From positions 1-64,000 of the forward strand of contig JASHPB010000128.1 in NCBI GenBank assembly GCA_030038355.1: DNA of 64,000 nucleotides, read 5' to 3'. The stretch comes from Candidatus Binataceae bacterium. Its GTDB lineage: Bacteria; Desulfobacterota; Binatia; Binatales; Binataceae. The notes under the pieces were generated by a model. The model saw only the letters and a list, made by a program, of their open reading frames with translations, made no database searches and was not told the DNA's origin. Every line of letters begins with the position of its first letter. Positions within the stretch are counted from its first letter, which is position 1. Positions 25,424-61,533 of this stretch are shown one piece after another. The position numbers were made by a program, and so were the translations under genes.

Positions 25424-26753
25424 GAGAAGGTCGCGGGCGGCGCCGAGCGGCGACCGCGTCCTCGAAATGCGCGAAGTCCACAAAGGCTTCGCCAAGCCCT
25501 CCGGTGAACCACTGCCGGTGCTGGCCGATATCAATCTCGCAATCGCAGAGGGCGAAATCCTTGGCCTCCTCGGACGTTCGGGCTCAGGCAAATCGACGCT
25601 GCTGCGGATCGCCGGCGGTCTTATCAAGCCATCGTCAGGTACGGTGCTCTATCGTGGAAAACCGCTCCTGGAGCCCGCGGCCGGCATCGCCGTGGTGTTT
25701 CAGAGCTTCGCGTTGTTCCCGTGGCTCACGGTCGAGGAAAATGTCGAAGCGGGCCTCGATGCAATAGGCCTGGCCAAAGCCGAAGCGCGCCGCCGGACGC
25801 AATCTGCGATCGAATTGATCGGCCTCGACGGCTTTCAGTCCGCCTACCCGCGCGAGCTTTCTGGCGGGATGCGCCAGCGCGTCGGATTTGCGCGCGCGAT
25901 GGTGGTCGAGCCGGTCCTGCTTCTCATGGACGAGCCATTCTCCGCCTTGGACGTGCTCACGGCGGAATCTTTGCGGACAGATTTCATGGATCTCTGGATC
26001 GAGCGACAGCTTCCGACCAAATCAGTCCTGATCGTGACGCACAACATCGATGAAGCGGTCATGATGTGCGATCGCATCCTGGTTCTGTCCTCGAATCCAG
26101 GACGAATCGCCGCTGAAATTCCGGTCCCGCTGGCACATCCGCGCGATCGGCAGGATAGTGAATTTCGCCGCATAGTCGATGAAATCTACTCGATCCTGAC
26201 CTCGCGCACGACCGAGTCGCTCAGCGCCGGCAACCACGCCCGCGGCCCCTTCGCACATCCACTGCCGTTGGTGACGGTGAATCGCTTGATGGGGTTTATC
26301 GACACGCTTGCGCAAGCGCCCTACAACGGGCAAGCCGAGTTGGCCGAAATCGCGGAAGCCTTCTCGCTGGACGTCGGCGCGCTATTCGCGATCGCCGAGG
26401 CGCTGCACATGTTGGAATTCGCCGAGCTCAAGGAAAGCGCGATCAAGATTACCGCGGCTGGCCGCCTGCTCACGCAGAGTGACACCGAGGAGCGTAAGCG
26501 GTTATTCCGTGAGCATCTGCTGCGTTTCGTTCCGCTCGCAGCACACATCCATCACGTTCTCAGCGAGCGCGAAGACCATCGCGCACCGCGCGAGCGATTC
26601 GAACTCGAACTTGAAGATCATCTCAACCCGGGTGATGCGGAAAAGTCCTTGCTGGCGGCGATCGGATGGGGCCGCTACGCGGAGCTTTTCGAATATGACG
26701 ACGACGCCCGAATCTTTGCGCTGATCGGTAGCAACAGTGAATCAGCTCTTTAA
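25389..26753 (+). CDS. ABC transporter ATP-binding protein with C-terminal AAA-associated domain
   Basis: Walker A GRSGSGKST, signature LSGGMRQR, Walker B LLLMDEPFSALD; C-terminal extension PLPLVTVNRLMGFIDTLAQAPYNGQAELAEIAEAF. Confidence 0.92.
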   Translation: MPSQNAERGLIERRSRAAPSGDRVLEMREVHKGFAKPSGEPLPVLADINLAIAEGEILGLLGRSGSGKSTLLRIAGGLIKPSSGTVLYRGKPLLEPAAGIAVVFQSFALFPWLTVEENVEAGLDAIGLAKAEARRRTQSAIELIGLDGFQSAYPRELSGGMRQRVGFARAMVVEPVLLLMDEPFSALDVLTAESLRTDFMDLWIERQLPTKSVLIVTHNIDEAVMMCDRILVLSSNPGRIAAEIPVPLAHPRDRQDSEFRRIVDEIYSILTSRTTESLSAGNHARGPFAHPLPLVTVNRLMGFIDTLAQAPYNGQAELAEIAEAFSLDVGALFAIAEALHMLEFAELKESAIKITAAGRLLTQSDTEERKRLFREHLLRFVPLAAHIHHVLSEREDHRAPRERFELELEDHLNPGDAEKSLLAAIGWGRYAELFEYDDDARIFALIGSNSESAL

Positions 26754-27138
26754 CAACATCCTGTGTCCGGTCGATTTTGACGGCCAGGCCGCGTCGGCAC
26801 TCGAATTAGCGGCGCGAATCGCAAGGACTATGGGCGCCGCGGTTTGCGTTGTTCACGTCGTTTCGGCCGACGCACAAGCTGAGCGCGGATGGCAAAAAGG
26901 TGAAGCTGTTCAACTGGAGAAAATCGCGGACGAAAAGCTGAGCGGGCTCGCCCACGATTTCATCGTCCGCAGCGGTGCCGTTGCGTTCGAAGTGCTTAAT
27001 GCCGCCGCCGACCTCGACGCCGATTTAATTGTGATGCCGACGCACGGTCGCGCCGGTTTGAAGCGGCTCGTTCTTGGAAGTGTCGCGGAGCAGGTCATTC
27101 GAAAATCTCCTGTGCCCGTCCTCACGCTAGTTCCTTGA
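26737..27138 (+). CDS. universal stress protein (UspA family)
   Basis: ILCPVDF..., DLIVMPTHGRAGLKRLVLGSVAEQVIRKSPVPVLTL ATP-binding UspA signature; overlaps ABC ATPase by 17 nt. Confidence 0.92.
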   Translation: MNQLFNNILCPVDFDGQAASALELAARIARTMGAAVCVVHVVSADAQAERGWQKGEAVQLEKIADEKLSGLAHDFIVRSGAVAFEVLNAAADLDADLIVMPTHGRAGLKRLVLGSVAEQVIRKSPVPVLTLVP

Positions 27139-27165
27139 GCTGCTGGGACAAATGATTCGGGGGCT

Positions 27166-27390
27166 ATCATCGCAGAGGTCGCGGCATTGGTCTGCGACCG
27201 AGCGCGAGCCGCCAAGTTGTCGGCGCTGCTGACGGTCGTGGCATTATCGCGAGCGCGCTCTCGGGGCCGCGATCACCACGCGCTTGGTGGAACTAGGCTG
27301 GATGGAGAGGACGAAGCGAAGCCACGCAGCGATCGGCACTGCATCGGGCAGGTAGGGGCTCCACTAGACTTCGGAGTCGACACGTCCGAA
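27166..27390 (+). pseudogene. ArsR-family transcriptional regulator remnant
   Basis: IIAEVAALVCDRARAAKLSALL (ArsR N-terminus) joined to frame-shifted AITTRLVELGWMERTKRSHAAIGTASGR*GL (ArsR C-terminus); the central HTH is missing. Confidence 0.6.
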
Positions 27391-27415
27391 GCAACCGAAC
27401 GCCGAGCAGACTAAT

Positions 27416-27435
27416 ACTTCGATCAACGTCGAAGT
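27416..27435. repeat. perfect 7-bp inverted repeat ACTTCGA-tcaacg-TCGAAGT
   Basis: Read directly; lies between the ArsR remnant and the CMD gene; not followed by a T-run. Confidence 0.6.
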
Positions 27436-27540
27436 GACGTTCTTGCTTTCGATCGTCTGGGTCATATGATTAGGGCAAGTTGCGGATAGCTCTTGTTCGG
27501 GCGCGAGCGCATAGCCCCGACATCACAGGAGGCAGCCATG

Positions 27541-28099
27541 CTGGAGGGAATAACACGCATTCCGCCGGTTGACATCGAGACACTTCCGCCAGACTTGCGC
27601 GAGGTACTCGCGGAGCAGCGCAAGCACTTCGGCGCTCCGCTGCATCCGAACCTCTTCTATGCGCGCAACCCGGCATACTTCGGCGCCGCGCGGGCGATGT
27701 GGACAGTCATCCAGCAAGCCACAGAAAGAGTACCCGGTACGCTTAAGAGCACTGCTCAACCACCGTGTTGCCTGGTGGAATGGCTGCGAGTTCTGAATGG
27801 ACTCCAAGGCTGCCGTTGGCAGCAGACTTGGCGTCCCGAATGACAAGATCGAGGATCTCAACGACTATGCGTAGAGCCCCCTCTTCACCGATGTGGAAAA
27901 GGTGGCGCTCGAATACGCAGATGCGATGACCGATACCCAGCGCGAGGTCGAGGACGAACTATTTCTGCGTCTGCAAAAGCATTACAACGACGACACCATC
28001 GCGCAGATCACAATGATCATCGCGTGGGAGAACTCGTCGTCACGCTTCAACCGCGTTCCGCATACCATCGCAGTGTTTTTGGAAGCCCTGACCGACTAG
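27541..28099 (+). pseudogene. carboxymuconolactone decarboxylase/AhpD-like protein with in-frame TGA at CxxC; possible (decayed) selenoprotein
   Basis: Frame 1 MLEGITRIPPVDIETLPPDLREVLAEQRKHFGAPLHPNLFYARNPAYFGAARAMWTVIQQATERVPGTL, +1 shift near 27745, then frame 2 RALLNHRVAWWNGCEF-TGA-MDSKAAVGSRLGVPNDKIEDLNDYA-TAG-SPLFTDVEKVALEYADAMTD...HTIAVFLEALTD. Confidence 0.8.
27806..27829 (+). promoter_or_regulatory. bSECIS-like stem-loop downstream of the CxxC TGA
   Basis: GCTGCC-GTT-GGCAGC (27809-27823) perfect 6-bp stem, extendable by AAG/CTT across a 3-nt bulge; loop begins 18 nt after the TGA with G as first loop base. Confidence 0.4.
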
Positions 28100-28163
28100 C
28101 CGCACAGGGTTACCGTACCGGCGATAGGCACAAACCAGCGGCGACGGTGGCCAGTTCAATTCG

Positions 28164-28673
28164 CTACGAGCGGCTCAATCGCGTGTGCCTGCCGGTTCCG
28201 AATACGACCAGCGCCTCCAGAATATCGCTTCGCGTGACGATGCCGACTAGCCGACCGTCGTCAGCTATCGGCACCGATCCGATTCGCTGCTGACGCATAA
28301 CCTCGGCGGCGTTGATCAAGGTGCTGTGCGGAGCAAGAGCGATCGCGGGGTGAGTCATCACCGATTCGATCTTTGTCTTGCCGGTGACTGTAGCTGCGCC
28401 AGCGGCGGTCACAGCCGCTCCGGGCGCCGTCAAAGCGGGGCCGCGAAGGTCTCGATCGGTTACGATGCCGATGAGTCTACCATCATCGACGACTGGCAGC
28501 TGATTGATGCGGTGTGTCCGTAACAGCGCGCGAGCCTGCTCGATCGAGTCATTCGGACCTGCCGTATGAAGTTTGGAACTCATCCACTCTTCACAGGTCA
28601 GGAAAGTGATGCTCTTCTTCCGATGGTGTTCTTCGTGCTTCGAATTCTTGTGCGTCGCGTTGGATGCATCCAT
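28164..28673 (-). CDS. CBS-domain pair protein
   Basis: INQLPVVDDGRLIGIVTDRDLR and RIGSVPIADDGRLVGIVTRSDILEAL. Confidence 0.93.
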   Translation of the reverse strand: MDASNATHKNSKHEEHHRKKSITFLTCEEWMSSKLHTAGPNDSIEQARALLRTHRINQLPVVDDGRLIGIVTDRDLRGPALTAPGAAVTAAGAATVTGKTKIESVMTHPAIALAPHSTLINAAEVMRQQRIGSVPIADDGRLVGIVTRSDILEALVVFGTGRHTRLSRS

Positions 28674-61175: not shown

Positions 61176-61533
61176 TGGTGGAGGCGGGGGGAATTGAACC
61201 CCCGTCCGAAGGCAGTCCGGCGATAGCCACTACACGCTTAGTCCGCGATTTGGAGCTCGCTCCAAAAGCACCCACGGACGGGCTCTCTCGAAGCCAGCCA
61301 GTTTGATCTCGGGCCACCGTCCAACCGGCGAACGACGGCACCCCAGCCCGCTAAATGACGCCCAGACCCGCCGCCGCGGGCATACGGCGGCTGGACGCTA
61401 GCGGCCCTTAGGCCGCCAGAGCGTAACCGTTATTGTCTGCGGGTAAATTTCGCAGTCTGTCTGTTTAACGGGCCGACAGTACCCCGGCGTGCGACCATGA
61501 CCCTCTTGTCTCCGTCGAATCCAGTTCGCCCCC
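61176..61533 (-). ncRNA. ssrA: transfer-messenger RNA (tmRNA)
   Basis: Minus strand 5' GGGGGCGAACTGGATTCGACGGAGAC... 3' GGGGGTTCAATTCCCCCCGCCTCCACCA; acceptor stem GGGGGCG/CGCCUCC incl. alanine-identity G3-U70; tag GCA GAC AAT AAC GGT TAC GCT CTG GCG GCC TAA = ADNNGYALAA* at 61440..61408. Confidence 0.97.

Follow-up and report, generated by a model that had tools for sequence, protein, structure and literature searches.

Does a TGA codon inside a CMD/AhpD-like gene of a Candidatus Binataceae bacterium specify selenocysteine (Sec), and does the gene that carries it still have a working frame? The question arises from a stretch of 64,000 nucleotides of contig JASHPB010000128.1 (hereafter the window; coordinates are on its forward strand unless marked otherwise). 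From the letters of this DNA, an original prediction placed a candidate selenoprotein gene at 27541–28099, and described it as either recently decayed or intact with assembly errors. Our analysis makes it very probable that the locus, at 27538–28091, is a recently inactivated CxxU selenoprotein gene of CMD/AhpD fold (YciW-related), that inactivation of this gene in a sister species was a separate event, and that both species keep their Sec machinery.

Gene boundaries, lesions and family

The gene starts at an ATG at 27538–27540, preceded by a Shine-Dalgarno-like AGGAGG at 27527–27532; position 27541 is the first base of codon 2. Lesions were located by aligning the window copy, at the DNA level, with three others: the syntenic copy in a genome of the same genus (G001), an intact homologue from the same family (G023) and one from the same class (G042). 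First, a single extra A at 27745/27746 creates a +1 frameshift (CTTAAGAGC here versus CTTAGAGGG in G001 and CTGCGGACT in G023). Second, a TAG nonsense codon (DYA*SPLFT) stands at 27872–27874, a site where relatives have Lys, Thr or Gly. Third, two bases are missing between 28052 and 28053 (ACC--GCGTTCCG here versus ACCGGGCATTCCG in the comparison sequence), which shifts the C-terminal AFRIPSQCFWK. The first two lesions had already been read from the sequence, the frameshift as lying near 27745, and the two-base deletion had been missed. All elements that the original prediction described are present. It follows from the two-base loss that the native gene ends at the TGA at 28089–28091, reading ..FWKP*, and that the TAG at 28097–28099 is fortuitous.

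Translation illustrates what these lesions do to the product. The first frame of the gene, MLEGITRIPPVDIETLPPDLREVL...ERVPGTL, runs up to the extra A, after which the sequence continues as RALLNHRVAWWNGCEF-TGA-MDSKAAVGSRLGVPNDKIEDLNDYA-TAG-SPLFTDVEKVALEYADAMT..., and the two-base loss hides the C-terminus AFRIPSQCFWKP. A ribosome starting at 27538 loses the frame before the UGA, passes the UGA out of frame without reading it as Sec, and meets a stop at 27841–27843, which leaves a fragment of 101 aa. Since the frame is lost before the UGA and ends at 27843, no selenoprotein is expected from the locus. With its +1, TAG and −2 lesions the copy is not open apart from the UGA, and 27538–28091 is a pseudogene of the CMD/AhpD-like CxxU family without a working frame.

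The family itself is a familiar one. The best family match of the window copy is NCBIfam NF053654 (GroundWater_YciW, "YciW-related (seleno)protein"), a family described with selenoprotein members, which it matches over its whole length (residues 6–172 to profile positions 2–167, E 2.8e-60). However, the window copy is frameshifted, carries a TAG and, at 203.1 bits, scores below the equivalog cut-off of 310, as does the intact G023 homologue at 234.6 bits. On these scores the window gene is placed in a subgroup related to NF053654, not among its strict equivalog members. Homology to the CMD domain is also found (PF02627, 30 bits against a cut-off of 23).

CMD-domain and AhpD-like CxxU selenoproteins were first reported in 2005 from the Sargasso Sea (PMC1088965) and are included in current lists (PMC9312934, PMC13188914). 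The window gene has in common with them (PF02627, TIGR01926) the CMD fold and a Sec in the second position of CxxC. Unlike them, the window copy is decayed, while another CMD selenoprotein of the lineage is intact. Two solved structures, PDB 2gmy (Atu0492) and 2prr (an AhpD-core peroxidase-related protein), are distantly related in sequence to the intact homologue; 2gmy has CxxC at the equivalent place, that is, Cys where the family has Sec. Our literature search on selenocysteine together with Rokubacteria found nothing relevant. The locus is a decayed copy of an already catalogued kind of selenoprotein.

The in-frame TGA and its downstream hairpin

The TGA at 27794–27796 lies in the motif NGCEF-U-MD, in frame as C-E-F-TGA. 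It occupies the second redox position of CxxC/CxxU, as the original prediction held, and the TGC at 27785–27787 encodes the first (resolving) Cys. A search of 96 related genomes yielded many homologues in which a single TGA is the sole internal stop, and in every TGA copy that was read it stands at the second Cys position of CxxC. Altogether 40 related copies carry TGA at the identical codon, nearly all with open frames, and 12 of these come from named public MAGs. Among public MAGs, TGA occupies the site in 12 of the 13 readable homologues. The TGA-bearing public MAGs are mostly Candidatus Rokuibacteriota but also include Reyranella, Betaproteobacteria and Chloroflexota. The nearest same-family homologue (G023) is 71% identical and open except for its TGA. 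Because 40 homologous copies have TGA at exactly the same codon, its position is not due to chance, and the view that the TGA of the window gene is ancestral, not a lesion, is firmly supported.

The one public exception is a Gammaproteobacteria MAG (L079, at L079:5202) with TGC in a CEYC motif. Its hairpin downstream of the codon is mismatched and it is nested inside the TGA clade, from which we infer that Cys is probably derived there by Sec-to-Cys conversion.

A SECIS-like stem-loop follows the TGA at 27804–27831. Its upper stem pairs GCUGCC (27809–27814) with GGCAGC (27818–27823) across a GUU loop, and in the window copy the lower stem pairs CCAAG with CUUGG. The stem-loop sits at a fixed distance of +16 to +30 from the UGA and its stem is perfect in the window copy. 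All six stem pairs are found in 30 of 40 TGA copies and at least four in 37; the other three (L018, L025 and L031) have sequence of GCATCC type with the register shifted, and a fold of one of them, L025, gives a stem whose loop is 4 nt. Among 31 distinct TGA copies, a set from which the three shifted copies and some near-duplicates were left out, pairing holds in 96.2% of cells. In this set the stem scores 0.167 for covariation; shuffles give 0.060, none of 500 is as high, and all slid registers score lower. The single-sequence fold of the window hairpin (−14.6 kcal/mol, z −1.79) is modest when taken alone. Among Cys copies, three retain just one to three of the six pairs, while the TGC copy L079 retains four. 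The element just downstream of the UGA is thus a conserved, covarying, predicted stem of SECIS type. An Rfam scan of 27400–28200 returned no match.

These observations bear on the reading in which the TGA is a plain nonsense mutation (TGC to TGA) of a Cys gene within a pseudogene. The gene is broken anyway and one TGC homologue exists, both of which suit that reading. However, homologues with open frames have TGA at this very codon, the hairpin covaries and the Sec machinery is present, and the single TGC homologue has a mismatched hairpin (four of six pairs), lies within the TGA clade and has a probably derived Cys. We reject a random nonsense mutation because close homologues carry the TGA, and regard it as extremely improbable. 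A selenocysteine codon is the preferred reading, in which the ancestral gene would have relied on SelB, Sec-tRNA and the hairpin starting just downstream to insert Sec at UGA 27794–27796. Judged from its family, the ancestral product was probably a small thiol/selenol oxidoreductase with a Cys–Sec redox pair in a CMD/AhpD fold, acting as a thiol-dependent peroxidase or reductase.

Selenocysteine machinery and an intact paralogue

A look-up of the Sec machinery, which the original prediction had proposed as a check, found every component in the genome of the window: SelA (523 bits), SelB (368 bits), SelD (385 bits) and a tRNA-Sec with anticodon TCA (70.6 bits). The same genome encodes an intact CMD paralogue (L010, G000:C193:4484-4984, − strand) whose TGA occupies the corresponding CxxU position (GCPF-U-MDINAAGG) and which has the same hairpin. 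SelA and SelB are also present in the same-genus genome G001. More broadly, TGA copies were read from 27 genomes, of which 25 have SelA, the exceptions being G011 and G073, and two of the three Cys-copy relatives (G045, G052 and G069) are without SelA. The proposal of a selenoprotein gene is thereby borne out by TGA in close homologues, a SECIS-like hairpin, the complete Sec machinery and a Sec-encoding paralogue that is intact. Uniform TGC among homologues and a genome devoid of Sec machinery, the findings that would have spoken against it, are not what we observed.

Two further features of this genome were seen in passing. Its SelD is itself Sec-containing (KAAG-U-AGK with TGA; L058, G000:C206:21800-22723) and its gene adjoins selB. 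Mechanical ORF listing cuts the paralogue on C193 at its TGA into ORFs of 198 and 119 aa.

Decay in two congeners

The only same-genus genome, G001, carries its copy in a syntenic position, with the ATPase gene upstream and the CBS-domain gene downstream. This copy has three frameshifts in the DNA alignment, none in common with the window copy. In contrast, 12 neighbouring genes show no frameshift in the alignment of the two assemblies. If indels were randomly scattered, the chance that all five fall in one gene would be about 3e-7; this rough estimate takes no account of selection on real indels but is the apt comparison for sequencing errors.

Between the window and G001 copies, dN/dS is 0.228 at a dS of 0.52 (Nei-Gojobori), above the 0.05–0.16 of neighbouring genes (ATPase 0.091, permease 0.109, cytochrome 0.132, CBS 0.156, Hsp20 0.068). 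The gene thus has the marks of a pseudogene, namely disabling lesions beyond the Sec codon in both congeners and relaxed constraint. Since dN/dS is nevertheless well below 1, the gene was constrained for most of the divergence, so the loss must be recent in both lineages. The tree places the two copies as sisters (support 100/97) with relatively long end branches, amid Rokuibacteriota and proteobacterial sequences; from this placement the family seems also to move between phyla.

Could the gene instead be an intact, working selenoprotein gene whose frameshifts and TAG stem from errors of assembly or consensus in a draft MAG? The assembly is a MAG of 349 contigs, a dN/dS of 0.23 signifies constraint, and the SECIS-like stem is perfect with the ribosome-binding site and ATG intact. 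Yet this 0.55 kb holds three separate lesions next to clean genes, and in the sister MAG the gene is also broken, at three different sites. Error-prone sequencing would also have hit other genes, and the 12 neighbours are frameshift-free. We therefore reject this reading as less likely, and consider it improbable. Of the two options originally offered, decay is clearly favoured by the syntenic sister copy broken elsewhere and by flanking genes free of frameshifts in both assemblies.

The constraint on the coding sequence might also be explained if programmed frameshifting read through the shifts to yield a full-length selenoprotein. However, the lesion sites differ between the congeners and are absent from intact relatives, no slippery site is conserved, and the TAG would need readthrough as well. 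We reject programmed frameshifting because the lesions are not common to both copies; there is very little chance that it operates here. Under recent inactivation, the preferred reading, the window gene has gained its +1 and −2 frameshifts and its TAG since it served as a selenoprotein gene, and the same gene was inactivated separately and recently in the sister species, with Sec machinery retained in both lineages.

A further reading, in our estimation evenly balanced, is that both congeners shed one and the same ancestral Sec-CMD gene recently, each on its own, yet retained all of the Sec machinery, which would imply that selection shifted in both against this selenoenzyme and not that selenium use is being lost overall. 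The locus is a clear instance of a selenoprotein gene in bacteria seen soon after its inactivation, when both the UGA and the SECIS-like stem are still there, and illustrates that a gene can be lost before the Sec system is, or with that system retained. A warning follows as well: automatic gene finding breaks such loci into small ORFs. Known Sec biology is unchanged by it; this is ordinary decay of a known selenoprotein.

Two minor observations concern the rest of the window. The segment at 26737–27540 is absent from the syntenic place in G001; it comprises a gene (26737–27138, 133 aa) that we take from its sequence to be universal-stress-protein-like, and the intergenic DNA after it, about 400 bases. 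Farther along, a tmRNA gene lies at 61176–61533 on the − strand and encodes the tag ADNNGYALAA.
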